This document shows positions 9,812 through 43,380 of a stretch of DNA of 43,380 nucleotides, piece by piece. Source of the DNA: a virus; the IMG/VR virus record IMGVR_UViG_3300009161_006335, positions 1 to 43,380 of that record, one strand, 5' to 3'. The translations under genes and the position numbers were made by a program. Under the pieces are notes generated by a model. The model saw only the letters and a list, made by a program, of their open reading frames with translations. It did not search any database and was not told the origin of the DNA. Each line of letters starts with the position of its first letter. Position 1 is the first letter of the stretch.

Positions 9812-12800
9812 CTAAAAAACATAATAGTCAGATGCAATTTCTACCCAATATTCATCAATAAATATTTCACTTTGACTAGAAGGTATTACTCGTTTAAAAG
9901 ATTCATTGTTGGCAGCTAAAAGTCCACTTTTGAATATGCCTTTATCAACTTGCGCGTTATATATCGCTTCGAGGCCCACATTACCTTTAATTGTGTCCTT
10001 GTCTAATTCAAAATCATCTGGGTCTATTGCAACTGTAAATGTTCTATCAAATTTCTTAGGTAAAAAAATCTTTTTTCTAATTTCGTCCTCAGGAAGAAAA
10101 ACTGTCTCATTCATAAAATATCGCTTAACAGATTCTTCTCTACGTTTGATAAAACTCACAACATTTTGTGGCGAAACATTCGCATTCGCAGGTATTGGTA
10201 TATCTAAATTAGAAGCGTTAAATGTGTTGTCAGTGGTTCCAATATAAAAATTAAACTGATCACTTACGTTCTTTAAAGATTTTTCTAAGTCAATGTAATG
10301 ATAAAAATGTCCTTCATCGACACGTGCGCTAGTAAACAAATTTATATATTCTTCTAGCAAAAAACTCTTAGCATGGTTTTTATAAATCTCTGTATATTCG
10401 GCTTTTTTATTTTGTTCTACAGCTTTCAAGGCGAGTTGGAGCGCGGTGTCGGGTTTAAGCGTTTGGTTTAAGCCAAAAGATTTCGCGCCTGCCAAAGAAA
10501 AAATCTTTGTTGGAATATTATTAATAAAATCATCTGCATAGCTATAAGCGTTAATGTCAAATTTGTCCCAGTTGCTAATCACCCGGGTTGGATATCTCAT
10601 TAAATCAAATTTAAATTCTTTTGGCAAATAAGGCAGACCGGGGTTTAGCAGGTCTGCCTTATATACTCTTAATGTTATTATATTATTAGCGAGAGTGCTA
10701 GCTTTGTCTAAGGATGACATTATGCTCGGGGTACCTGAAAGTTTTCTAGCCATTCTTGGAGGAATTCCAACTGTTATAAGTCTAACATTGTTACCATCTT
10801 TTTTGTTAAGCGTTGGCTCAATTGTGAAATATTTTCTTATAACGCTGTAAGAAAATGCATCAAAGCTGTTCACAGGAAGAAAGTCGATATTTTTAATATC
10901 ATAGCTGTTATCATTACTCATTGTTCCTGTTAGTGGAAACATTGCTGCGGTGTTGTACTCGGGTCGTACCCCTGCAGCAGCAAGATTTTGTATAGCAAGC
11001 TGTGCCAAAGGTCGATGACCTTCAGAAAATCTATCAATAACTTCACTAGCAATATGACTTGAATGTATAAGCTGTTCTTGAGAAAAAGCTTGAGAAACTA
11101 AATAATTTTTCATTTTAGAATCAGACCCAGCTTCAGAAGCTACAGCTGAATAAAATTGATTGTAATAATCTTTTAATGGGTGATTTTTTTCATTAATCTT
11201 GTCTAAATACACCTTAAACTTCTCTACTTTGTCTGACATATTGCTTATAAAGCTGTTTAATGTCAAAGTTCTTTTTTTCATAGAGATAATTTCAGATAAT
11301 GCAATAGAATTAGAGCTGTTTAACGTTACGGGATTTAACGCAGTCTCGTATAAAAAAGAAGTACCGGGAAGAAGTTGAAACGGTGAAGTGCTCGAAGCAA
11401 CCGTTTTAATGTTACTAGACCCTTGATGGGATATTGTAGAATTAGAAAATACAGTTGAATAACCACCTAAAAGTGATCCACCTTTTTCTAATTCACATGG
11501 ACCAACAAATTCTTCTGGCGTCAATACAGATATTGCATTAACAAGAACTAAAAAATAATTCCACATGAATGAAATTTTTGATATGCCACCATAAGTTGTC
11601 GTAGAATCATCTATGCCGCCGGCAAGCTTGACACCGGCCGCAGGAAAATCACCATCTAATCTAAATAATCCGGGCCGTCTTCTAATCATGTGTAGACACG
11701 AAGCGATAGAATCAAATAAAATATTGTCGGAAATTGATACATAATTAGAAAAAAGAGAATTACCTTTCTGCAAAAGATTGATTTCATTGGCCGAGGGCGA
11801 GCTGTAGTTGTCCAGGTCGTTTGCCGAGACGAGCTTAAAATTTGTAATTACAAAGTCGAGTAATCCATTCGGTTTAAAGCTAGTTTTATTTGTATCAGCT
11901 GTTATAACAGGAAACATTTCTGGGTGAGCAAAAATTAATCCGTCGATGGCTAATCCAGGTCTATTAGCATTTCCATTGGCGTCAATAAGCGTTAAATATT
12001 TAGCTTTTCTAAGTGTAGCTGATTCTTTAAAATTATTTTCAAGCGTCGGATTGCCTTGTGCAAGCTCTTTTAAATCAAGTGTGGATGTTGCGCCGACATA
12101 TTTTATTCTTGAGCTTTGTTTAAAAGGTGAATATCCGCTAGACTCAATTTTGCTGTTAGAATCATCAAAATCTAATTGGTACATTCTGTTAAGACAGATC
12201 GAAAAAATAGCTTTTAATATACTTTCACCCACCCGCTTTTCATTAAGCTTTTCACTAAATGCTAATGCTTTAGTTCGCTTAATTAATGATGCCAATAGCC
12301 TGCCTGAACGGTGGACGGGATTTAATTTAAGAAATTGATCATGATTAATAACAATCAGATTATCTTTGTTTAAAACATTTTTAGCGTCGGATTGGGTTTT
12401 GGTAGCAACTTTGATAAATTTAGTACTAAAATATATTTTATCTAAAGCTGATTTAATTCCTTTAGAAGGATCATCTAACATACTATCATAAAGCGCACCG
12501 CCGAAGATGCCGGCGGAGATGCTGTTGTTGGTAAAGAGATCGGCGTAAGACAGCGCACCGCCGGCGGTGAGGCCCTCGTTTAAACCACTCACAATTTCCA
12601 TTGAGCGATTTGCATTGTTTATTTTTGTTAATAACTCATTAGCTTTTTCAGGGGATAAGCTGATGCTCTCATTGGATGTATTGGCTGCATTAATTTTACC
12701 AGCGAGTGCAGCTTCTAAGTAATAAGTTGCTCCATTCGTGTCGCCTGGGTTGAAATCAACTATTTCTGGGTTATCATTGACTTCAAGCGATAAAATTCTA

Positions 12801-14203
12801 GACTCATTGTCAACTCCGGCGGGGGCGGGCACCTGGGAGTTTAATTGCTTTACTTGTTTTGTTAACGACAGAAGTGAGATACCGGGATCTGTTTCATCTG
12901 CAACTGTAAAATTAGTAATATTTTGTTGGAATACGCCAATTAAACTATCCCATATGGCAAAGTTTGGATCTCCAGCTGGTTGTATATTAAATGTAATATT
13001 AGCTTTGTCTAATTTATTTTGATTTTGTGGGACGCTTAACCATCTAGAATAAGACTCTTCTTTTAAAAGATTGAAAAGTGTCAATCCAAATAGCCTATCC
13101 GTTTTATCCTTATAACCAGAAATTTCTTTTGCTATGTTACATTGTAAAAGTGGAACTATAGACAAGCCGAAAAAGGGATCACCCGAGAAAAGGGGGGTTG
13201 ATGAAATATAAGGTGAAAATGATGCCAGCACTTGTTGCTGGCTGTTGGTGGTGATAGGTGGAGAATAAGCTACTTTTGTTTGTGGCTGTAAACCTGTCGC
13301 TTTAGGATTTGCAAGACCTACAGTAGCTATAAGTAGCAAAGCACCGTTAGTTGACGAGTTTAAATTTTTATTTAAAACAACGTGACTTTTTACAGGTGCA
13401 TTTGAAGAAAAGCTTATTAAACCTAATTTATTTTGTGTGCTGGGTATTGTCAATAGATCGTATAAAGTGTTTTTATATAAATCTAGATTTGAATAGCCTT
13501 GTTCAACCGCGCCATCAATAACAGAATCATTATTATGAAGAATAATTTGTTTTTTAAGCAGTAATAGAACAGTAGCATAAATTGTGGTATTAGAAAAATT
13601 GCTAGGGCTTGTTGTATCTAAATCTTTAATGTTCTCTGAAGATAAAAGATCATCTATTGGGTACTGAAAAACGTTTTTCTGCAGTTTTCTAATATCTAGA
13701 GAAAAAACTGCTTCTTCAAATTTGGTTAATAATTCGCTGACAGGCGCTAATTGTTTGTTAGCGATATTAACAAAAGATATTCTTTTTTCAACAATCTTTT
13801 TGAGCGTACTATCTTTTACTACAATAATTTTAGCTGCTGTTGATGCTGTTAAAGTTTGAGCTGCCTCTTTAACTGAGAGCGCATAATCTCTATCTTGAGC
13901 TTGATTAAATCCAAAGCTTGTAATGTTACCTGTATCTTGCAAGGGAAGATATTCAGCAGACGAAATTATTACAGGTTCATCCTGCGGCAGCAATGTGTAG
14001 ATTGTAAATTCTGTAGCTGCGGTTGCCTGTGCTTGTAAGCCAGGGTCAGTCACATTATTCTGAGTATATACACTTGATGGAGGTGAAGGCACTATTTTGG
14101 GAAGCAATGAGGGGCTGAGAACGACGAGAGGCGTTTGTATTATAGTTGTTGCCTTAGTGTTATAGCCGTTTTGCGCGGGTGATGCTTTGCTTGGTTTTCC
14201 CAT
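9812..14203 (-). CDS. Giant virion protein of unknown fold (1463 aa)
   Basis: The largest gene in the window. The start ATG (14203) lies 7 bases after the stop of the 809-residue gene, so it is translated from the same message. The N-terminus (1-70) is low complexity, rich in Pro, Thr, Gln and Ala. Most of the rest is Asn/Ser/Leu-rich, with alternating predicted helices and short strands and no recognised enzymatic motif, signal peptide or membrane segment. Its size, position among tail-type proteins and lack of repeats suit a baseplate hub/wedge or long tail-associated component. It is not clearly a tape measure, because it lacks an extended coiled coil or transmembrane helices. I do not recognise the family. 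Confidence 0.6.
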   Translation of the reverse strand: MGKPSKASPAQNGYNTKATTIIQTPLVVLSPSLLPKIVPSPPSSVYTQNNVTDPGLQAQATAATEFTIYTLLPQDEPVIISSAEYLPLQDTGNITSFGFNQAQDRDYALSVKEAAQTLTASTAAKIIVVKDSTLKKIVEKRISFVNIANKQLAPVSELLTKFEEAVFSLDIRKLQKNVFQYPIDDLLSSENIKDLDTTSPSNFSNTTIYATVLLLLKKQIILHNNDSVIDGAVEQGYSNLDLYKNTLYDLLTIPSTQNKLGLISFSSNAPVKSHVVLNKNLNSSTNGALLLIATVGLANPKATGLQPQTKVAYSPPITTNSQQQVLASFSPYISSTPLFSGDPFFGLSIVPLLQCNIAKEISGYKDKTDRLFGLTLFNLLKEESYSRWLSVPQNQNKLDKANITFNIQPAGDPNFAIWDSLIGVFQQNITNFTVADETDPGISLLSLTKQVKQLNSQVPAPAGVDNESRILSLEVNDNPEIVDFNPGDTNGATYYLEAALAGKINAANTSNESISLSPEKANELLTKINNANRSMEIVSGLNEGLTAGGALSYADLFTNNSISAGIFGGALYDSMLDDPSKGIKSALDKIYFSTKFIKVATKTQSDAKNVLNKDNLIVINHDQFLKLNPVHRSGRLLASLIKRTKALAFSEKLNEKRVGESILKAIFSICLNRMYQLDFDDSNSKIESSGYSPFKQSSRIKYVGATSTLDLKELAQGNPTLENNFKESATLRKAKYLTLIDANGNANRPGLAIDGLIFAHPEMFPVITADTNKTSFKPNGLLDFVITNFKLVSANDLDNYSSPSANEINLLQKGNSLFSNYVSISDNILFDSIASCLHMIRRRPGLFRLDGDFPAAGVKLAGGIDDSTTTYGGISKISFMWNYFLVLVNAISVLTPEEFVGPCELEKGGSLLGGYSTVFSNSTISHQGSSNIKTVASSTSPFQLLPGTSFLYETALNPVTLNSSNSIALSEIISMKKRTLTLNSFISNMSDKVEKFKVYLDKINEKNHPLKDYYNQFYSAVASEAGSDSKMKNYLVSQAFSQEQLIHSSHIASEVIDRFSEGHRPLAQLAIQNLAAAGVRPEYNTAAMFPLTGTMSNDNSYDIKNIDFLPVNSFDAFSYSVIRKYFTIEPTLNKKDGNNVRLITVGIPPRMARKLSGTPSIMSSLDKASTLANNIITLRVYKADLLNPGLPYLPKEFKFDLMRYPTRVISNWDKFDINAYSYADDFINNIPTKIFSLAGAKSFGLNQTLKPDTALQLALKAVEQNKKAEYTEIYKNHAKSFLLEEYINLFTSARVDEGHFYHYIDLEKSLKNVSDQFNFYIGTTDNTFNASNLDIPIPANANVSPQNVVSFIKRREESVKRYFMNETVFLPEDEIRKKIFLPKKFDRTFTVAIDPDDFELDKDTIKGNVGLEAIYNAQVDKGIFKSGLLAANNESFKRVIPSSQSEIFIDEYWVEIASDYYVF

Positions 14204-22192: not shown

Positions 22193-22795
22193 CTATTCAC
22201 CAATGATCTTATCGACAATTCCCATCTTTATCGCTTCTTGCGGCGATAAATAGACGTCATGGCCACGCTTCATAATATTTTCAATATCTTCTTTTGATAG
22301 TTTGGTTTCTTTTGCAATAGCAGTTGCCATTTGCACTTGCAATCGCTTACTTTCTTCTACATCATTCATTAACTCAAAGATATTTCCAGCAGACCCACCA
22401 GATATTGGATGCATCATAATTCTAGCTGATCTACCAATCATTCTTTTTCCTTTTTCGCCTGATGCAAGTAGAAGTACACCGGCAGACATAACTTTGCCTA
22501 AAGCAATCGTATGAACTGGACATGGTAAAAACTTTATAGCATCATATAAAGTAAACATCTCATCAACAGATCCACCGTATGTTGAAATGACAAGATGAAT
22601 TGGTTTATGATTTTGACTAGCAAGATGCAACATTTGCATCATTACTGTTGATATTGATTGTTCATTAACATCGCAGTGAAGTACTAATAACCGAGAGCTA
22701 TCTCCTACTTGAATATGAACACCTGATGACTCGTAGTCATAATTTCCTCTTTTAGATGCATCACCATGATTGCTGATTATGTAAGATCTACCCAT
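22193..22795 (-). CDS. ClpP-like serine protease (S14)
   Basis: 200 residues, normal ClpP length without a propeptide. The catalytic triad is visible: S104 in VMSAGVLLLASG, H129 in MMHPISGG and D180 in GHDVYLSPQEA. The oxyanion-hole glycines precede (STYGGSVDEM). ClpP forms a tetradecameric barrel and needs an AAA+ partner (ClpX/ClpA), which is not encoded here, so it may use the host's. Alternatives are regulated degradation of host proteins or head maturation, since S14-fold proteases also act as phage prohead proteases. Its start overlaps the end of the 93-residue gene by 8 bases, with a GAGGA ribosome site, so the two are coupled. Confidence 0.92.
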   Translation of the reverse strand: MGRSYIISNHGDASKRGNYDYESSGVHIQVGDSSRLLVLHCDVNEQSISTVMMQMLHLASQNHKPIHLVISTYGGSVDEMFTLYDAIKFLPCPVHTIALGKVMSAGVLLLASGEKGKRMIGRSARIMMHPISGGSAGNIFELMNDVEESKRLQVQMATAIAKETKLSKEDIENIMKRGHDVYLSPQEAIKMGIVDKIIGE

Positions 22796-35557: not shown

Positions 35558-35959
35558 ATGAATAGAAGATATCTGCCTACGCTATCAGAGCTAATTGATA
35601 GACTCTCAATTCTTCAGCTAAAAGAAGTCTTTATTACTGAACATAAAAAAGAATATTCAGAAGAAATTAAAGACATTGTTCACGATATACAAGAATGTTT
35701 AAACGATACAAATACTGTTTTATCTGCTGAAGATGTAAGAGCTATTGTTGTACTTTCACAAATGAATCTTCACATATGGCATAATGAGTCAAACTATAGA
35801 AAAGGCATTAAAGACGGTAATGATCTAGCGCTTACTCATGGCCTTAATGGAATACGAAATACAGCCAAGAATAAGATTCAAGAGTCAGCAGCCGGAAGAA
35901 AAGATTATAAAATTGACTGTTTAGCAGCAGACTTTAAAGATTGGGAGGTAAGCTGGTGA
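35558..35959 (+). CDS. Hypothetical protein, LIDRLSIL-type family
   Basis: 133 residues, helical. LPTLSELIDRLSILQLKEVF and QMNLHIWHNESNYRKG are conserved-looking (the pattern L-H-I-W-H-N-E is typical of a small uncharacterised family near sugar genes, possibly DUF4254-like). C-terminus is acidic and ends inside the next gene. AACTTATTATATTTGAG in the gap before it could be a promoter. Function unknown. Confidence 0.6.
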   Translation: MNRRYLPTLSELIDRLSILQLKEVFITEHKKEYSEEIKDIVHDIQECLNDTNTVLSAEDVRAIVVLSQMNLHIWHNESNYRKGIKDGNDLALTHGLNGIRNTAKNKIQESAAGRKDYKIDCLAADFKDWEVSW

Positions 35960-36603
35960 TTATTACATTAAAAGATAAGATTTTAGAAAGACTAAACTTT
36001 TACTCCGATAGATTTTATCAAGAAGGATCTTGTGGAGCTAGACCGAATGGATGTCATTCTATAGAATGCGCTAATAGAAAAAGGCATTATACTGACAAAA
36101 ATCTATACCACTCATATGGTGAATTTTATGCAAGCCTAATAGCAAATTTACTTGGAAGTCAAAAAGAAGAAGACTTTTCAATAATGGAATTAGGAACATA
36201 TTTTGGCGGATCAATTGCTGCGTGGTGCGAATCATTACCACAAGCTTTTGTTTGCGGTATTGATCAAAATCTAGATAGATTATGGATCGATCCAAACAAC
36301 TATCCTAACTTAAAACTAATTTCAGGCAATCATGAAAATCTACTAACATATGAGTCACTAGGAAGTAGAAAATTTGATCTTATAATCGACGATGGCTCAC
36401 ACATAGCCGATAATCAAATTAGTAACTTTTCTATACTCAAGAGCAAACTAAAACCAGACGGTGTCTATATTATTGAAGACATTTATCCTGAAAACGTCTA
36501 TCCTGAAAATTTTTTAAATCAATTTGAGCGAGTTGATTTCTCTAAAGACTCTGGTAGGGGAGACGATACACTGCTTGTTTACAAACACACTGAGAAAAAA
36601 TGA
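35956..36603 (+). CDS. SAM-dependent methyltransferase (class I, capsule-type)
   Basis: 215 residues from GTG 35956, chosen because GGGAGG at 35943-35948 lies 7 bases ahead; a TTG at 35941 would sit inside the ribosome site. Motif I is IMELGTYFGGSIAAW; CGIDQNLDRLWID follows; the FDLIIDDGSHIADNQISN segment and YIIEDIYPENVYPE match sugar O-methyltransferases of the Methyltransf_24/cephalosporin-hydroxylase-like group. Probably methylates a glycan residue. Overlaps both neighbours by 4 bases. Confidence 0.82.
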   Translation: MIITLKDKILERLNFYSDRFYQEGSCGARPNGCHSIECANRKRHYTDKNLYHSYGEFYASLIANLLGSQKEEDFSIMELGTYFGGSIAAWCESLPQAFVCGIDQNLDRLWIDPNNYPNLKLISGNHENLLTYESLGSRKFDLIIDDGSHIADNQISNFSILKSKLKPDGVYIIEDIYPENVYPENFLNQFERVDFSKDSGRGDDTLLVYKHTEKK

Positions 36604-37127
36604 ATAAAAGAGCATTAATATTAACATATGAAAGTTACCAAGACCATGAGGTCATCTATCCATACTATCGACTAACAGAAGATGAGTATGATGTTGAAAT
36701 TATGTCTAACAAACAGGGAAGATTTTATGGCATATTAGGAACATATATGAACGGAACTCATCTACTAAGTGATCTGTCTGATGCAAGCAAAAGAGAAAAC
36801 TTTTTTAAGTATGACTTACTTGTAATTCCGGGCGGAGTCAAAGCGCTAGAGTATCTTAGGCAAGAAAAAGATGTTCTCGACTTTATTAATGAGTGGGATA
36901 AGAGAAAAAAAGTCATAGCTTGTATTTGTCATGGCGCTCAACTTTTAATTTCTTCAAAAGTTGTTGAGGGAAGACAGATCTCTGGGTACTATAGTATTAA
37001 GGATGATATTAACAACGCAGGCGCAATATATGTTGATGCGCCCTTTGTTGTCTCTGACAATATTGTCACATCTCCGCATTATAAGCACATGGGTCCTTGG
37101 ATGAAAAAAGCGATCAGCATGGTGTGA
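36600..37127 (+). CDS. DJ-1/PfpI family protein
   Basis: 175 residues. The start ALILTYESYQDHEVIYPYYR and catalytic cysteine in IACICHGAQLL (nucleophile elbow) with LLVIPGGVKAL (GG motif) define the DJ-1/PfpI family. Members are proteases, chaperones, glyoxalase III/deglycases or amidases. In a sugar cluster a deglycase or glyoxalase role protecting against reactive carbonyls (such as those from keto-sugar or TPP chemistry) is conceivable. ATGA overlap with the methyltransferase. Confidence 0.88.
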   Translation: MNKRALILTYESYQDHEVIYPYYRLTEDEYDVEIMSNKQGRFYGILGTYMNGTHLLSDLSDASKRENFFKYDLLVIPGGVKALEYLRQEKDVLDFINEWDKRKKVIACICHGAQLLISSKVVEGRQISGYYSIKDDINNAGAIYVDAPFVVSDNIVTSPHYKHMGPWMKKAISMV

Positions 37128-37128
37128 T

Positions 37129-37803
37129 ATGAGTTATAAGACGAATATTGTTAAGAAACCATGGGGCTATGAATATCTAGCATATGAAAATGAAAATGTA
37201 GCTTTGTGGTTTCTTAGTATTTTAAGGGACCAAAAAACTTCAATGCACTGTCACCCAAATAAAACTACGGGCCTGATGGTAATTGATGGAGATGCAGAAG
37301 TTTCTTTCTTATCTAATAAGTTAAGTCTATCTACAAAAGAAAAGACAATGATAAGAAAAGGACTTTTTCATTCTACACATGCAATTGGTTCTAATTTATG
37401 CATATTTGAAATTGAAACACCTGTCAACAAGCACGACCTTGTTAGACTTGAAGACAAATATGGAAGAACAGGTCAACCTTATGAAGATGAATCAAATGAA
37501 TTACCAAAAGCAAGTGAATGTATTTGGATTGACGAACCAGTTAAAGGATTGAGTAATTTCTATAATCTTGGTGGAAAAAAAATAGCTGTTCATCACATTG
37601 ATAGCATGCAACATATGCAAAGTCTATTAGCACAAACTAACTCACACATTATGTTTTTAAGAGGAGGTCTCTTAACAGCATATGACATTAATGTTGCAGG
37701 TCCCGGTGATATTGTGACCAAAGACGTCTTAGAAAAATTGTTAAAAGTTTTTTCTAATATGTCTAATAACACGATTGTTTTAACCCATGAAGGTAACTTT
37801 TAA
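37129..37803 (+). CDS. Cupin-fold sugar isomerase-like protein
   Basis: 224 residues. VKKPWGYEYL start, then SMHCHPNKTTGLMVIDG with metal-binding H-C-H, and LFHSTHAIG (second histidine) are cupin motifs. The ending pattern ETPVNKHDLVRLEDKYGR is typical of cupins beside LPS genes and resembles mannose-6-phosphate isomerase-like proteins. It could isomerise or epimerise a hexose phosphate. Two bases after the DJ-1 gene, two before the next. Confidence 0.72.
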   Translation: MSYKTNIVKKPWGYEYLAYENENVALWFLSILRDQKTSMHCHPNKTTGLMVIDGDAEVSFLSNKLSLSTKEKTMIRKGLFHSTHAIGSNLCIFEIETPVNKHDLVRLEDKYGRTGQPYEDESNELPKASECIWIDEPVKGLSNFYNLGGKKIAVHHIDSMQHMQSLLAQTNSHIMFLRGGLLTAYDINVAGPGDIVTKDVLEKLLKVFSNMSNNTIVLTHEGNF

Positions 37804-37805
37804 TT

Positions 37806-38192
37806 ATGAAAGATTTCCCACCAGGATTTGAAAATGAGTCAAACAATATTGCAATTGACTTTGATGGTGTAATACACGATTTTAGTAAAGGTTTTTATGA
37901 TGGAACATGCTATGGAGAACCCTTACCTGGATCAATTGAGTCAATCAAGAAACTATCTAAAAAGTTTAATATTGTTATCTTTACCGCAAAAGCTAAACCA
38001 AGTAGGCCTCTTATTCAAGGAAAAACAGGAAAAGAGCATGTAGAAGACTGGCTTAAAAAGCATGAAATATTTTCTCTAGTAAAAGAAGTAACATCTGAAA
38101 AACCAAGAGCTTTTCTGTACATTGATGATAAAGGTTATAGATTTAGCAACTGGGATGATGCCTTGCTTTTTATAGAAAAAAATTATGAGTGA
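37806..38192 (+). CDS. Small HAD-like phosphatase
   Basis: 128 residues. AIDFDGVIHDF (catalytic D-x-D), IVIFTAKAKPS (motif II Thr), and AFLYIDDKGYRF (acidic motif IV). Related in type to the 118-residue HAD at 31885-32241. Could be a sugar phosphatase. Overlaps the TPP alpha subunit start by 8 bases. Confidence 0.75.
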   Translation: MKDFPPGFENESNNIAIDFDGVIHDFSKGFYDGTCYGEPLPGSIESIKKLSKKFNIVIFTAKAKPSRPLIQGKTGKEHVEDWLKKHEIFSLVKEVTSEKPRAFLYIDDKGYRFSNWDDALLFIEKNYE

Positions 38193-39018
38193 ATACAGTC
38201 TAAATGTATTTAAGCGAGCTTCGCTTTGCAGAAATTTTGAGAAAAAAGTTTTTGATCTTATAAAACTCAATACTTTTAAATTTCCAATTTATCTGTCTGC
38301 AGGCCAAGAATATATTGCAGCTTCAATTGCTGAATGTTTATCTTTGGCAAAGATTAATCCTAATATCTTTATTCAACACAGAGGACATTCAACTTATCTA
38401 TCTTTTGAAGCGCCCATAGAAGAATTAATTGATGAACTTTTAGGAAGAAAAACAGGTTGTTCAAATGGCATGGGTGGATCTGCTTCAATTCAGTCTAGAC
38501 TTAAAAATATTTATGGTCACGATGGTCTGATGGGAAGTCAAGTCCCAATCGCAGTTGGGCACTGTTATTCAACAAAAAAACCTACTATAGTTTTTATGGG
38601 TGATGCCTCTGCAGAAGAAGACTATGTTTTAGGTGCACTTGGCTGGGCGGCTACTAAAAAACTACCAATATTATTTGTTGTTGAGGATAACAATCTTTCA
38701 ATTCTCACAGAGAAAAAAGTTAGAAGAAGTTGGGAGATGGATGATGTTGCTAAATCTTTTGGAATGAATGCGTTTAATATAAATGATGATCCGCACGAGA
38801 TTCAAGAAGCTTTGACATCTGTGTTTGCTAGCCCGTTGCTTATAAACGTCAATACGCATAGAAAATATTGGCATGCTGGTGCAGGTATTGATGACGAAAC
38901 TATCTATGACCGCTATGAAAATGAAATGAAGACATTAGGCATCAAGGCACAAGAAATACATGAAAAAACACGTCTACATGTAGAGGAATTATGGCAAAGA
39001 ACGTTAGAGAAACAATAA
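38185..39018 (+). CDS. Thiamine-diphosphate E1 alpha-like subunit
   Basis: 277 residues, shorter than pyruvate dehydrogenase E1 alpha (about 350). FPIYLSAGQEYIAASI, IQHRGHSTYLSFEAP with H65/H68, NGMGGSASI, and the diphosphate-binding GDASAEEDYVLGALGWA (139-155) ending in EDNN (167-170) are the E1 alpha signature (GDG-x(n)-NN), here with GDA. Pairs with the beta subunit, whose gene overlaps by 28 bases. In antibiotic and LPS clusters such pairs can add a two-carbon unit to keto sugars; lipoyl and E3 genes are absent. Confidence 0.85.
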   Translation: MSEYSLNVFKRASLCRNFEKKVFDLIKLNTFKFPIYLSAGQEYIAASIAECLSLAKINPNIFIQHRGHSTYLSFEAPIEELIDELLGRKTGCSNGMGGSASIQSRLKNIYGHDGLMGSQVPIAVGHCYSTKKPTIVFMGDASAEEDYVLGALGWAATKKLPILFVVEDNNLSILTEKKVRRSWEMDDVAKSFGMNAFNINDDPHEIQEALTSVFASPLLINVNTHRKYWHAGAGIDDETIYDRYENEMKTLGIKAQEIHEKTRLHVEELWQRTLEKQ

Positions 39019-39902
39019 AGTCTCTTACTAAGAAACATCTAGAAAGCGGAAAAAGATGTTTTGGGCAGTGTCTAACAGCTGTTGGATGGGTTGGCGGAAC
39101 ACTACCAGAGCTATATGAAGAAGACGGAATGGTTGAACTTTCGATGGCCGATGTCTCAGGAGGTTCTATTGTTACAGGAATTGCGCTTGCAGGTGAAAGA
39201 CCAATTTACGTTGTTAGATATCAGGGTTTTCAATGGTATAACGCACCGTCAATTGTTAACTATGCTGCCAAGTCAAAAGAAATATGGGGAATACCCTGCC
39301 CTATCTTTGTCAGGAGTATTGCGATGGAAGGTGGCGTAGGACCAGTTGCTGGCTCTTCACATCATTCACTATATGATAGAATGCCAGGTTTAAAAATTGC
39401 TGCACCCATGACCCCACTTGAGTATGAAAAAGTTTATGACTCTTTCATGAAAGATGACGTACCATATTACGTTTCAGAGCATAAAAAAAGTTATGATAAT
39501 TGTGAAGAACTCGAAGATGAAATACATGAAAATTCCGACATAGTATTATTTCCAATATCAATTACAAGATTTTCAGCAAAAGATGCAAAACTAAAATTAG
39601 AAGAGCTAGGATACACTGTAAGTATCGTTCATCAATTATGGATAAAACCTTTTACTGGGAAGCAAAAATCGGTAGATGCATTAAAAAACTCAAAAGCAGG
39701 TTTAGTAATTGATGATGACTACGCTCAAGGAGTTGCTACAAATATCGCTCATCAGCTTATGTTATCATCTAAAAAAACAGTTGATGTTTTAGGCTTAGAA
39801 GAAAGAACAGCGGGTTTTCATCCAAGCGTTGACTTATTTCCACCAAGCTCTGAAAACATAATCAATAAATGTCTAGAGTTACTATCAACTAAATTAACAT
39901 GA
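38991..39902 (+). CDS. Thiamine-diphosphate E1 beta-like subunit
   Basis: 303 residues from ATG 38991, with AGAGGA at 38982. ELSMADVSGGSIVTGIALAG followed by ERPIYVVRYQGFQ, the GGVGPVAGSSHHSLYDRMPG stretch and APMTPLEYEKVYDSF match E1 beta (transketolase-like) subunits. At the spot where E1 beta has the conserved Glu that contacts thiamine N1' this protein has D54. The C-terminal domain (KAGLVIDDDYAQGV) is also present. Forms an alpha/beta complex with the preceding gene. ATGA overlap with the RmlC-like gene downstream. Confidence 0.85.
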   Translation: MAKNVRETIKSLTKKHLESGKRCFGQCLTAVGWVGGTLPELYEEDGMVELSMADVSGGSIVTGIALAGERPIYVVRYQGFQWYNAPSIVNYAAKSKEIWGIPCPIFVRSIAMEGGVGPVAGSSHHSLYDRMPGLKIAAPMTPLEYEKVYDSFMKDDVPYYVSEHKKSYDNCEELEDEIHENSDIVLFPISITRFSAKDAKLKLEELGYTVSIVHQLWIKPFTGKQKSVDALKNSKAGLVIDDDYAQGVATNIAHQLMLSSKKTVDVLGLEERTAGFHPSVDLFPPSSENIINKCLELLSTKLT

Positions 39903-40381
39903 TATTTTCTGATGTCAAAGAGTATGAAGCAAGTTATTACAGTGACTACAGAGGAGACTTGTGGACACTGTGGAAAGAGGATGAAACATATCCATCTATT
40001 AAATTTAATCATGACAAAGTTTCAACATCAAGAAAGAATGTGTTAAGAGGCATTCACGGTGATTTTAAGTCAACTAAATTGGTAACATGTTTGTTTGGAG
40101 AAATTTATTTTGTAGTTGTTGATAACCGTCCAGACTCACCTACATTTAAAAAGTGGGATTGGACTATGCTAAGTGATAAGAACAAGAAATCTATACTACT
40201 TCCACCTGGTTTCGGCAATGGATTTCTTGCAATGAGTAAACATTCTGTATTCCACTATAAATGGTCTTATGAGGGATCGTATCCTGATGTTGATGAGCAA
40301 TTTACTATTAAATGGAATGATTCTACTATCGGAATTGACTGGCCGATTTTAAATCCAATTTTACAAAAAAGAGACAAGTGA
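39899..40381 (+). CDS. dTDP-4-keto-6-deoxyhexose 3,5-epimerase-like protein (RmlC family)
   Basis: 160 residues, slightly shorter than RmlC (about 185). SRKNVLRGIHGDF holds the catalytic His (H53), FHYKWSYEGSYPD holds the Tyr (Y120/Y124), and LLPPGFGNGFLAM is the RmlC P-x-GF-x-HGF motif with Asn in place of His. The WSYEGSYPD and GIDWPI phrases match the family. It would epimerise a 4-keto-6-deoxy sugar; with the Asn change it could be a 3- or 5-specific form. Coupled between the TPP pair and the 3-dehydratase. Confidence 0.82.
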   Translation: MIFSDVKEYEASYYSDYRGDLWTLWKEDETYPSIKFNHDKVSTSRKNVLRGIHGDFKSTKLVTCLFGEIYFVVVDNRPDSPTFKKWDWTMLSDKNKKSILLPPGFGNGFLAMSKHSVFHYKWSYEGSYPDVDEQFTIKWNDSTIGIDWPILNPILQKRDK

Positions 40382-40385
40382 CATT

Positions 40386-41567
40386 ATGCAAAACTTTAAA
40401 TGGCCGCTAATCAATGATAACGTTTCAGACAGCGATAAAAAAGCTTTAATAAAATTTCTTTCTGAGCCTGGTGTAAGACTAACCCAGGGAAAAAAGGTAC
40501 AAGAGTTTGAAAAGAAATGGTCCGAGTGGCTCGGTGTTTCTTATAGCGTATTTGTTAACTCGGGTGCCTCCGCAAATTACATTATGACTGCAATTTGCCG
40601 CGACGTAAAAGGAGTAGGCGAGATAATTGTACCTCCTCTTGGCTGGGTCTCTGATATTGCTGCCGTCGTAAATCTCGGCATGATCCCTGTATTTGTTGAC
40701 ATCTCAATGGAAAATTTAGCAATTACTGCTGAAAATATTGAAGAGGCAATAACAGAAAATACAAAAGCAATAGTTTTAGTTCATACGCTAGGATTTAATG
40801 GCATAAATGATAAAATTATTGAAATTGCAAAAAAATACAATTTGATGTTGATTGAAGATTGCTGTGAGTCACATGGAGCAACCTTCAATGAAAGAAAAGT
40901 TGGAACGCTTGGAGATATATCAAATTTTTCATTCTACTTCGGTCATCATATGACTACAATTGAAGGCGGAATGATATGCACAAATGATAAAGAACTTTAT
41001 GATCTTGCTAAACTCTACAGATCACACGGTATGATTCGTGAGCTTGACGAAGAAACTAAAACAAAATACTCAAATGAAAATCCATCTCTAAATCCTCTGT
41101 TCACTTTCGTAGTGCCTGGATTTAATATGAGGAGCACTGAAATCAATGCAGTAATTGGATTAGAACAGCTAAAACATTTAGACAGTGCAATTCAAAAAAG
41201 AACTAATAATCTTTTAAGCTGGCTTTCTAAGCTTGACTCTAAGCTATTCATTACAGAGTTTCACACATTAGGCAGCAGTAATTTCTCTCTACCTCTAATT
41301 TTGCGTAAACCAAACGAAGATGCTTTTAAAAAGATATGTGATATTCTTGATAGTGAAGGAATTGAATACAGAAAAGGTACAGCCGGCGGAGGTAATCAAG
41401 CACGTCAACCTTACTTAAAAAAGTTTATTCATAAAATTGTAGGAAATTTAAAAACAGTCAATCACGTACACGATTTTGGACTTTACATTGGTAATCATTC
41501 TGACGTTAATGATGAAGATATTGAAAAAATTTGTCTTAAATTTTCTCAGGAGATTACTAATGTTTAA
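40386..41567 (+). CDS. ColD-like sugar 3-dehydratase of the DegT/DnrJ aminotransferase family
   Basis: 393 residues, same as ColD (about 388). The family fold is clear: NSGASANYIM, VPPLGWVSDIAAVVNLGMIP, LIEDCCESHGATF (D158 contacts PLP). At the place of the Schiff-base lysine (in SFF-x-x-K-x3-T-x-EGG) it has GHHMTTIEGG: H187 aligns with the lysine. Histidine there is the hallmark of PLP/PMP-dependent 3-dehydratases (ColD H188, CDP-sugar dehydratase E1 H220) rather than aminotransferases. The four Fe-S cysteines of E1 are absent, so ColD is the nearer match. It would remove the 3-OH of a 4-keto-6-deoxy sugar. Overlaps the next gene by 8 bases. Confidence 0.85.
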   Translation: MQNFKWPLINDNVSDSDKKALIKFLSEPGVRLTQGKKVQEFEKKWSEWLGVSYSVFVNSGASANYIMTAICRDVKGVGEIIVPPLGWVSDIAAVVNLGMIPVFVDISMENLAITAENIEEAITENTKAIVLVHTLGFNGINDKIIEIAKKYNLMLIEDCCESHGATFNERKVGTLGDISNFSFYFGHHMTTIEGGMICTNDKELYDLAKLYRSHGMIRELDEETKTKYSNENPSLNPLFTFVVPGFNMRSTEINAVIGLEQLKHLDSAIQKRTNNLLSWLSKLDSKLFITEFHTLGSSNFSLPLILRKPNEDAFKKICDILDSEGIEYRKGTAGGGNQARQPYLKKFIHKIVGNLKTVNHVHDFGLYIGNHSDVNDEDIEKICLKFSQEITNV

Positions 41568-42534
41568 AAACAAGAAAGTATTAGTTACTGGTGGGAATGG
41601 GATGATTGGCAGGCATCTCATTGACCTTCTACAAAAGAGGGGAGCAAATATTAGAGTTGCCGACATTAGACAAGCCCCTGATGTAAAAGGCGTAGAATTT
41701 GTCAATGTTGACCTCAGAGACTTTAATTCATGTAAAAAAATATGTGACAATATTGACTACGTCTTTAATTTAGTTGGAATTAAATGCTCGCCAAAAGTGT
41801 GTATTGAAAGACCTGCTGATATTATGGGCCCAATGCTTCAGTTTAATACAAACATGTTAGAAGCAGCAATGCAAGCAAATATAAAATGGTACTTGTATAC
41901 AAGCACAGTAGGTGTTTATGCACCAGCCGAAGTCTTTCATGAAGATGATGTTTGGTCTTCTCAGCCTTCTAAAAACGACTGGTTTGGCGGGTGGGCAAAA
42001 AGAATGGGTGAACTTCAGTGTCAAGCATATGAAAAACAATTCGGTGAAGGAAAATGCAGCATTGTGAGACCTGCTAATGTTTATGGTCCATATGATAACT
42101 TTGATCTTGAAAGCTCAATGGTCATACCATCATTAATTAGAAAAGCATTTTCAAATGGAAAGCTTTCTGTTTGGGGTGACGGATCAGCTGTAAGAGACTT
42201 TATTCATGCAAAAGATGTTGCAGAAGGTATGATCTTTGCAGTTGAAAATAAGATAACAGATCCTTTAAATTTAGGATCTGGGAGTGGAGTTACAATAAAA
42301 GAAGTTGCAGACTGTGTTGCTGAGATAGTTGGAGTTGATGTAGAGTGGGATCTATCTAAACCAACAGGTGATGCTAAGAGAATTTTTGATACTAAGCGTG
42401 CACAAAAATTAGGTTTTGCACCAAAGATAACAATTAGACAAGGCATAGAAGAAACTGTTAAGTGGTATGTGAAAAATATTCAAGAAGCGAATACAAGACT
42501 TGACACATTTAAGCTCTTAAAAGAAAAAGTTTAA
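41560..42534 (+). CDS. NAD-dependent sugar epimerase/dehydratase (extended SDR) with altered catalytic site
   Basis: 324 residues from ATG 41560, with AGGAG at 41548-41552; an upstream in-frame start would overlap the dehydratase heavily. VTGGNGMIGRHL (9-20) is the G-x2-G-x2-G motif; STVGVY (115-120) has the Ser/Thr; RPANVYGP and RDFIHAKDVA are extended-SDR motifs. The usual Y-x3-K is changed: K147 in WAKRMGEL is present but position 143 is Gly (DWFGGWAKRMGEL), with Phe at 142. So the catalytic Tyr is missing. Perhaps another residue serves, or it catalyses only reduction/epimer binding. Confidence 0.85.
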   Translation: MFKNKKVLVTGGNGMIGRHLIDLLQKRGANIRVADIRQAPDVKGVEFVNVDLRDFNSCKKICDNIDYVFNLVGIKCSPKVCIERPADIMGPMLQFNTNMLEAAMQANIKWYLYTSTVGVYAPAEVFHEDDVWSSQPSKNDWFGGWAKRMGELQCQAYEKQFGEGKCSIVRPANVYGPYDNFDLESSMVIPSLIRKAFSNGKLSVWGDGSAVRDFIHAKDVAEGMIFAVENKITDPLNLGSGSGVTIKEVADCVAEIVGVDVEWDLSKPTGDAKRIFDTKRAQKLGFAPKITIRQGIEETVKWYVKNIQEANTRLDTFKLLKEKV

Positions 42535-43110
42535 ATGAATAGAATTCTAGTCACAGGCGCGAGTTCAGGTCTAGGCAAATATTTGTCAAAAAAGTTTGAA
42601 GACGAAGGTCATTTTGTTCTAAAGCACAATGGAAAAAATCACTTTAATCTAATTAATTTAAACGACTTAAACAGACTAATTTGTCTTGCAAAAGAAAATA
42701 AAATTGATGTATTAATCAATAACGCAGCCATTACATGCCCAGGAAAGAAGCTACATGAGTATAGCCAGGACGAGATAGTTGATATGACAAGTGTTAATTT
42801 GCTTGCCCCTATTCTTCTTACTCATGGTCTAGTTGATCAATTAAATTGTGTTATCAACATAAACTCAATGGTTGGTCTAGAAATAAAGCCAAAAAGAACG
42901 TTATATTCAGCTACGAAATGGGGACTAAGAGGATTCTCTCAAAGTTTTTCGTCTGAGAATGAAAGAATTCATATTCTTGACGTATATCCAACTAATATTA
43001 AGACAAGTCCTGAAAAAGAAAACGCGATGGATATAAACTTTGTTCTAGATGAAATCTATAATGCATTTTTAAATAAAGAGAAACGGCTGGTTTTAGATGG
43101 AAGAAAATAA
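42535..43110 (+). CDS. Classical short-chain dehydrogenase/reductase
   Basis: 191 residues, shorter than typical (about 250). VTGASSGLGKYLS (6-18), LINNAAI (60-66), SMVG (S111) and YSATK (Y124, K128) form a complete active site. Likely reduces a keto-sugar. It begins right after the previous stop and its end overlaps the next gene's start by 14 bases. The C-terminus is compact, which suggests a reduced substrate cap. Confidence 0.85.
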   Translation: MNRILVTGASSGLGKYLSKKFEDEGHFVLKHNGKNHFNLINLNDLNRLICLAKENKIDVLINNAAITCPGKKLHEYSQDEIVDMTSVNLLAPILLTHGLVDQLNCVININSMVGLEIKPKRTLYSATKWGLRGFSQSFSSENERIHILDVYPTNIKTSPEKENAMDINFVLDEIYNAFLNKEKRLVLDGRK

Positions 43111-43380
43111 AAAGCTGATGCTAATTTGTGGTGCTACTGGCTTTATTGGTAGAAATTTACTTGACTTCTTTGTCAAGAAAGACATCTATAAAATTAGAGC
43201 AACTCATTTTTCTAGAACCGCACCCAAAGGTTATGAAAATGTCGAATGGGTAAAGTGCGATCTAAAAGATCATAATTCTGTGAAGTCAATCATGAAAGGA
43301 GTTGATGTTGTTCTACAATTTGCAGCAACAACGTCGGGCGCAAAAGATATTATTGCTAAACCCTATATTCATGTAACTGA
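43097..43380 (+). CDS. Extended SDR, nucleotide-sugar epimerase/reductase (3' part cut by window edge)
   Basis: Partial, about 94 codons visible. The N-terminus MLICGATGFIGRNLL is an intact G-x2-G-x2-G Rossmann motif; LKDHNSVKSIMKGVDVVLQFAA is the expected second strand. The start is ATG 43097 (14-base overlap with the previous gene); ATG 43118 is an alternative. Resembles GDP-fucose synthase/UDP-sugar epimerase-type SDRs; the catalytic Tyr-Lys lies beyond the window. Confidence 0.75.
   Translation, partial: MEENKKLMLICGATGFIGRNLLDFFVKKDIYKIRATHFSRTAPKGYENVEWVKCDLKDHNSVKSIMKGVDVVLQFAATTSGAKDIIAKPYIHVT

Follow-up and report, generated by a model that had tools for sequence, protein, structure and literature searches.

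Organization of the glycan cassette and its conserved unit

The marine virus fragment IMGVR_UViG_3300009161_006335 (43 kb; its whole stretch of 43,380 nucleotides is hereafter the window) carries on its plus strand, from 25.7 kb onwards, a glycan cassette that includes enzymes of the families GT2, GT11, GT6 and GT4 and continues past the end of the fragment. Within this cassette lies a pair of genes resembling the E1-alpha and E1-beta subunits of thiamine diphosphate (ThDP)-dependent dehydrogenases, to which the comparisons below assign a likely role in sugar branching. The gene of the putative E1-alpha-like carboligase subunit (38185..39018; 277 amino acids [aa]; PF00676, E=6e-20) overlaps by 28 bases that of the E1-beta-like subunit (38991..39902; 303 aa; PF02779, E=3e-10), which in turn overlaps by 4 bases the gene of an RmlC-family epimerase of the guanosine diphosphate (GDP)-4-keto-heptose type (39899..40381; PF00908, E=4e-38, with matches in the PDB); after a gap of 4 bases follows a ColD-type, pyridoxal phosphate (PLP)-dependent 3-dehydratase (40386..41567; PF01041, E=7e-73). 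All four are on the plus strand, and both the open reading frames and the Pfam matches agree with the order and spacing given for them in an earlier reading of the window (the original prediction).

That prediction had confined the unit to positions 38185-41567; its genes stand, but its boundaries were too narrow. The conserved unit begins at 36600, upstream of E1-alpha, with three further plus-strand genes: a DJ-1/PfpI-family protein, the first gene of the conserved module (36600..37127; PF01965, E=1e-34; TIGR01382, 123 bits), a cupin related to the phosphomannose-isomerase domain (37129..37803; PF01050, E=7e-6; motifs PWGxE, HxH and DLVRLxDxYGR), and a small HAD-like protein, a probable phosphatase (37806..38192; motifs DFDGV and YIDDK, no Pfam match). 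At the other end, a plus-strand frame read from the sequence as the N-terminal part of a nicotinamide adenine dinucleotide (NAD)-dependent epimerase (43097..43380, start approximate) is interrupted by the window end at 43380, so the pathway extends beyond it. In the nearest complete viral locus (L003), whose cassette genes are 72-78% identical, this epimerase is followed downstream by PhyH, a homologue of GDP-heptose dehydratases and an HldE-type kinase.

The E1-like pair represents a distinct marine clade

Scans of viral contigs for the E1 family recovered 44 loci with one subunit and 63 with the other. Since the pair recurs with the same neighbours in 57 deduplicated viral and 34 cellular loci, this run of genes is far beyond chance. 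The 34 close cellular relatives, obtained by a genome scan, show 51-64% identity (one of them 47%) and belong to SAR11, SAR116, Betaproteobacteria, Thiothrix-like gammaproteobacteria and one Sungiibacteriota genome; the cassette predicted for a phage is indeed in a phage, but it is shared with SAR11, SAR116 and other marine bacteria. A match to a Streptomyces plasmid (L147) in the E1-alpha genome scan gave no interpretable cluster, and a collection of annotated phages contained no close relative of the E1 proteins, of PfpI or of the YerE-like protein described below (best identity <35%, with many of the contigs evidently host-type).

In the E1-alpha tree, built with a quick method and containing long branches, the family forms a single clade on a very long branch (Shimodaira-Hasegawa-like approximate likelihood ratio test [SH-aLRT] 100), in which the viral and the cellular sequences form adjacent groups. 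Residue counts and neighbour tallies were made on 90 viral and cellular E1 loci. The ThDP-site residues GD...N, His65, Arg66, His68 and His230 are present in essentially all 90 rows; in E1-alpha the ThDP/Mg site reads GDA...NN, with His65, His68 and His230 kept and a family-specific His112-Asp113. The position of the catalytic Glu of E1-beta, assigned from the family alignment and from an alignment to the Bst pyruvate dehydrogenase (PDH) E1-beta, is occupied by Asp54, with Asp in 90/90 family rows and Glu in 5/5 comparison E1-betas. The AlphaFold2 (AF2) model of E1-beta has the PDH E1-beta fold, with template modelling (TM) scores of 0.84-0.86 to PDH E1-beta chains. Against the curated model TIGR03182 the E1-alpha protein reaches 111 bits (cut-off 394), and a second comparison of the pair with curated family models gave 46 bits (cut-off 321). 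As the original prediction had stated, no E2 gene stands beside the pair: PF00198 was not found in the window or in another 17 viral records, 39-197 kb long, E3 not having been searched for as such. The acetoin or branched-chain dehydrogenase with E2 and E3 nearby that the prediction had named as the contrary case is therefore not what these low family scores and the missing E2 describe. Judged by sequence, the pair falls into a marine clade of its own with members at the 90 loci, and the lack of E2, the replacement of Glu by Asp, the separate clade and the sub-cut-off scores indicate that it is not a normal dehydrogenase component.

On a plasmid of Azospirillum thermophilum (L150:4815-9012), an ordinary E1 pair (GDG, Glu) directly precedes a ColD-type gene with the HH motif and an epimerase, with no lipoyl genes nearby. 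Given this plasmid, the association of E1 with ColD perhaps arose more than once.

Exchange of the E1 pair with a YerE-like enzyme

The genes for PfpI, cupin and HAD also occur without E1, in which case the next gene usually encodes a protein of ~590 aa from the acetolactate synthase superfamily. Among solved structures this protein is closest to the YerE-like enzyme JanthE (8rph, 396 bits), followed by acetohydroxyacid synthase (AHAS, 265 bits). The HAD gene is conserved beside the cupin whichever ThDP enzyme is present. The exchange was counted in 60 deduplicated viral loci with PfpI-cupin(-HAD), flanked on either side by 5 kb or more: the E1 pair is present in 40 and the YerE-like enzyme in 18, two loci have neither, and no locus combines them. 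Scans seeded with PfpI only or with cupin only gave 33 E1 versus 11 YerE-like loci and 26 versus 17, respectively. The type of ligase tracks the genes for the acceptor, ColD being present in 32/40 E1 loci versus 0/20 of the others, and RfbH in 16/18 YerE-like loci. In a PfpI tree (quick method) the two states interleave, with seven changes of partner, at least three of them forced by well-supported branches. The same alternation is seen in cells: among 297 genomes of the SAR11 family, 12 possess the cupin, seven with the E1 pair, four with the YerE-like enzyme and one unresolved.

YerE-like enzymes carboligate an acyl unit derived from a keto acid to a ketosugar (PMC12247030). Because members of two ThDP superfamilies alternate in a single slot, the E1 pair likely performs the same kind of reaction. 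The best reading of these data is that the pair takes the place of YerE and would branch a 4-keto-3,6-dideoxy-heptose; that the phage makes a branched surface sugar is very likely. The coupling of a ThDP carboligase to a 4-keto-3-deoxy-sugar dehydratase, the core of the original prediction, thereby gains support, for which this exchange behind PfpI-cupin-HAD is the strongest basis.

A miniature ThDP pair, consisting of an E1-alpha of ~200 aa and an E1-beta of ~178 aa without the C-terminal domain, is encoded in both E1-type and YerE-type clusters (L117:11709-12314 and 12321-12854; L036:12781-13922; L343:8276-9446; L123, L084 and L125) and is a candidate for a third ThDP enzyme in this pathway.

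The predicted acceptor is probably a heptose

The ColD-like protein carries His at the position of the PLP-binding Lys of aminotransferases (FGHHMTTIEGG). Its best PDB match is ColD (2gms, 203 bits), the iron-sulfur (Fe-S) enzyme DdhC/E1 (3bcx) scoring 164 bits, and inspection of the sequence found no RfbH-type Fe-S cysteine motif. Clearly similar dehydratases in the E1 loci likewise have His at the Lys position, the few Lys-type copies being distant aminotransferases elsewhere in the loci.

The RmlC-like protein matches GDP-D-glycero-4-keto-D-lyxo-heptose 3,5-epimerase (8db5) with 167 bits and the GDP-4-keto-heptose epimerases as a set with 162-167 bits, compared to 93 bits for the deoxythymidine diphosphate (dTDP)-sugar enzyme RmlC (1dzr). 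Forty loci encode a 4,6-dehydratase homologue that scores 389 bits against GDP-D-glycero-D-manno-heptose 4,6-dehydratase (7us5) versus 152 bits against GMD. Neighbouring kinases are of the HldE domain I or HddA type and are followed by a cytidylyltransferase-like gene. A GmhA-type isomerase gene is present above the family cut-off in 10/11 cellular genomes, and the same gene family in 13 cellular loci; by position, it lies inside some of the cellular clusters (e.g., L107 and L115), and it was not found in 14 viral records. Since the RmlC-like protein, the kinases and the 4,6-dehydratase encoded in sister loci are all heptose-type, similarity and context point to a GDP-heptose, and not a hexose, as the probable sugar, which departs from the 3,6-dideoxy-hexose of the original prediction.

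Searches seeded with the companion genes also recovered close ColD relatives together with heptose dehydratase and RmlC at loci without E1, PfpI or cupin, and the acceptor module is therefore independent of them.

The PfpI-cupin-HAD module

Across the 90 loci, the most constant neighbours of E1 are the cupin (82) and PfpI (78), followed by the DegT-family dehydratase (71). The catalytic Cys110 of PfpI is invariant in the alignment. The AF2 model of the cupin has a predicted local distance difference test (pLDDT) score of 95. Both a PDB profile search and a fold search returned general cupin matches only; a D-lyxose isomerase and a phosphomannose isomerase were among them, but no match was decisive. 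In six YerE-type viral loci without the E1 pair, a gene for an alpha-hydroxy-acid dehydrogenase lies directly behind HAD, either of the sulfolactate/ureidoglycolate-dehydrogenase type (L334:11047-12081, L335:11041-12081, L356 and L360) or of the LldD type (L357:11001-12191 and L364).

Because PfpI, cupin and HAD remain constant while the ligase, the dehydratase and the nucleotide sugar change, their most likely place is the donor side of the reaction, where they probably prepare an alpha-keto-acid donor. Supply of a donor fits the position of the alpha-hydroxy-acid dehydrogenases behind HAD, and it also fits ErwE, which is known to prefer long keto acids that carry hydroxyl groups (PMC12247030). 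The branch may thus be longer than two carbons, by way of a made-to-order keto acid.

In a second type of cluster, PfpI has in front of it the gene for a 506-aa, B12-binding radical SAM protein, beside an HddA-like kinase (L097:6240-7757, L093:4361-5890 and 33 other loci); C-methylation or dehydration of a sugar is a possible function for it.

Proposed pathway and alternative explanations

From the gene identities, their conservation and the E1/YerE-like exchange, all of which are directly observed, we infer every chemical step of the following scheme, as well as the GDP carrier, the C4 position and the donor. We consider it likely that the E1 pair is a ThDP carboligase and not a dehydrogenase, which would transfer an acyl unit from an alpha-keto acid to the C4 ketone of a GDP-4-keto-3,6-dideoxy-heptose and so create a C4-branched sugar of a surface glycan. 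The route would start from host GDP-D-glycero-D-manno-heptose, possibly with the help of phage kinases and a nucleotidyltransferase, and proceed through the 4,6-dehydratase that sister viruses encode past the point corresponding to the window end. Next, the ColD-type 3-dehydratase and, at C5, the RmlC-type epimerase would yield the acceptor, a 4-keto-3-deoxy sugar for which either ColD or RfbH could be responsible. PfpI, cupin and HAD would deliver the keto acid, for instance through phosphatase, aldose-ketose isomerase and glyoxalase-III-type steps, and the E1 pair would decarboxylate it and add the acyl branch at C4. Finally, the GDP-fucose-synthase-like (Fcl-like) short-chain dehydrogenase/reductase (SDR) and other SDRs would complete the sugar, and the products of the upstream GT2, GT4, GT6 and GT11 genes would place it on the glycan.

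A wider proposal, which we put forward tentatively, is that a modular route to undescribed C4-branched 3,6-dideoxy-heptoses of at least nine carbons is common to phages of the sea and bacteria of the SAR11 type. One donor unit, PfpI-cupin-HAD, would serve either of two unrelated ThDP ligases, the Asp-type E1 pair or the YerE-like enzyme, each with its own 3-dehydratase and nucleotide sugar, and phages would use the product to remake the host surface during infection.

Several points weigh against the carboligase scheme. The catalytic Glu of E1-beta is replaced by Asp family-wide, a substitution for which no precedent was found here, and the 4,6-dehydratase lies outside the window, being known from sister loci. 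Fisher values on the 60-locus count ignore relatedness and are not taken as probabilities. The fold matches of the cupin are generic, and it is from context that we infer the donor role of PfpI, cupin and HAD. Moreover, the separable module of ColD, RmlC and heptose dehydratase might be used to make a different sugar of that glycan.

In a variant compatible with the core of the scheme, PfpI, cupin and HAD would act after the ligase, to isomerise, dephosphorylate or rearrange the acyloin. Their constancy amid changing ligases and acceptor genes fits such tailoring as well as it fits donor-making, but the alpha-hydroxy-acid dehydrogenases behind HAD are what donor supply predicts, and we regard the variant as rather unlikely. 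It appears improbable that the E1 pair, in line with the original prediction, uses pyruvate only, adding a two-carbon acetyl branch to a 4-keto-3,6-dideoxy-hexose while PfpI, cupin and HAD serve something else. The characterised and proposed E1-type sugar-branching pairs do give C2 branches and prefer pyruvate (PMC12247030), and ColD, the best PDB match of the dehydratase, acts on a GDP-hexose; however, the RmlC-like protein, the dehydratase and the kinases are heptose-type, PfpI and cupin accompany E1 at 78/90 and 82/90 loci without being needed for a pyruvate donor, and the dehydrogenases behind HAD at the six non-E1 loci also count against it.

Another possibility concerns an early step of the pathway, for which LmbR, a transketolase-like enzyme of the lincosamide octose pathway, offers a model. 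The E1 pair would build a ketose phosphate in a transketolase-like manner, the cupin would isomerise it, and the heptose-type kinase, the HAD phosphatase and the nucleotidyltransferase would activate the product; the phosphomannose-isomerase motifs retained by the cupin and the proximity of these three genes agree with such a role. It is made very doubtful by the GmhA-type gene in 10/11 cellular genomes, which implies an ordinary heptose supply, and by the exchange of E1 for YerE-like enzymes, which act on finished nucleotide-sugar ketones, while PfpI and cupin stay. A pyruvate or acetoin dehydrogenase E1 boosting the energy metabolism of the host is scarcely credible, since, even though family models and PDB matches are mainly known dehydrogenase E1 subunits, the scores fall far under the curated cut-offs, E2 is absent from 18 viral records, the catalytic Glu is altered across the clade and the sugar-gene context is constant in viruses and cells.

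Relation to known systems

E1-type pairs known or proposed to install acetyl branches are AviB1/AviB2 of avilamycin, Pau11/Pau12 of paulomycin and KbDH-alpha/beta of kibdelomycin, and YerE-like enzymes install such branches in lipopolysaccharide sugars (PMC12247030, PMC4753412, PMC4425429). Like the phage pair, the three antibiotic systems comprise a two-gene E1 ThDP enzyme in a deoxysugar cluster. Going by their descriptions, the phage pair differs in its occurrence in glycan clusters of phages and marine Gram-negative bacteria, its GDP-heptose-type context, its invariant Asp and its PfpI, cupin and HAD companions. The YerE-like enzymes, with YerE, ErwE and JanthE as examples, share the slot behind PfpI-cupin-HAD in sister loci and are also partnered with a 3-dehydratase, but they are single-chain, acetolactate-synthase-type proteins of a different ThDP superfamily whose partner is mainly RfbH, not ColD. 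The phage cassette has the ColD-type dehydratase in common with the colitose pathway and the GDP-heptose-type epimerase in common with the GDP-6-deoxy-heptose pathways (dehydratase 7us5; 3,5-epimerases 8db5 and 7m14), the corresponding dehydratase being located in sister loci. The pair resembles the E1 components of PDH and branched-chain alpha-keto acid dehydrogenase (BCKDH) in its fold, with a TM score of about 0.85, and in most of the residues of the ThDP site, and it differs from them by the lack of E2, shorter subunits, Asp instead of the catalytic Glu and GDA instead of GDG. No description of 3-deoxygenation, heptose enzymes and a ThDP ligase together was found in the literature searched.

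If the scheme is correct, E1-type sugar-branching enzymes, known from antibiotic clusters according to a review (PMC12247030), would be linked to the surface glycans of ocean bacteria that are very abundant and of the phages of these bacteria; two ThDP enzyme superfamilies would also substitute for each other in one pathway. It would predict a branched deoxyheptose that can be searched for, give PfpI and the cupin a first testable role in such pathways, provide enzymes for making chiral tertiary alcohols, and bear on the alteration of host O-chains by phages against other phages.

Other genes of the window

Behind the ColD-type gene, the plus strand encodes the Fcl-like SDR, a reductase/epimerase candidate (41560..42534; NF047922, 164 bits; PDB 7ll6, 116 bits), and a short-chain dehydrogenase conserved behind it (42535..43110; PF00106, E=5e-23) and found in 19 E1 loci. 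The YxxxK motif of this Fcl-like protein has a displaced or absent Tyr (WFGGWAK here, WYGGWAK in most close relatives), and its chemistry may accordingly be unlike that of a normal reductase. Outside the cassette, the fragment carries phage-type genes for a DNA primase, a helicase, a PhoH-like protein and a head-protease-like protein. By its helicase, which reaches no more than 32% identity to cultured phages, the fragment is not close to any of them. A gene resembling ClpP and head maturation proteases is located on the minus strand at 22193-22795, and a small conserved protein encoded at 35558-35959 adjoins the cassette in 36 viral and 0 cellular loci.

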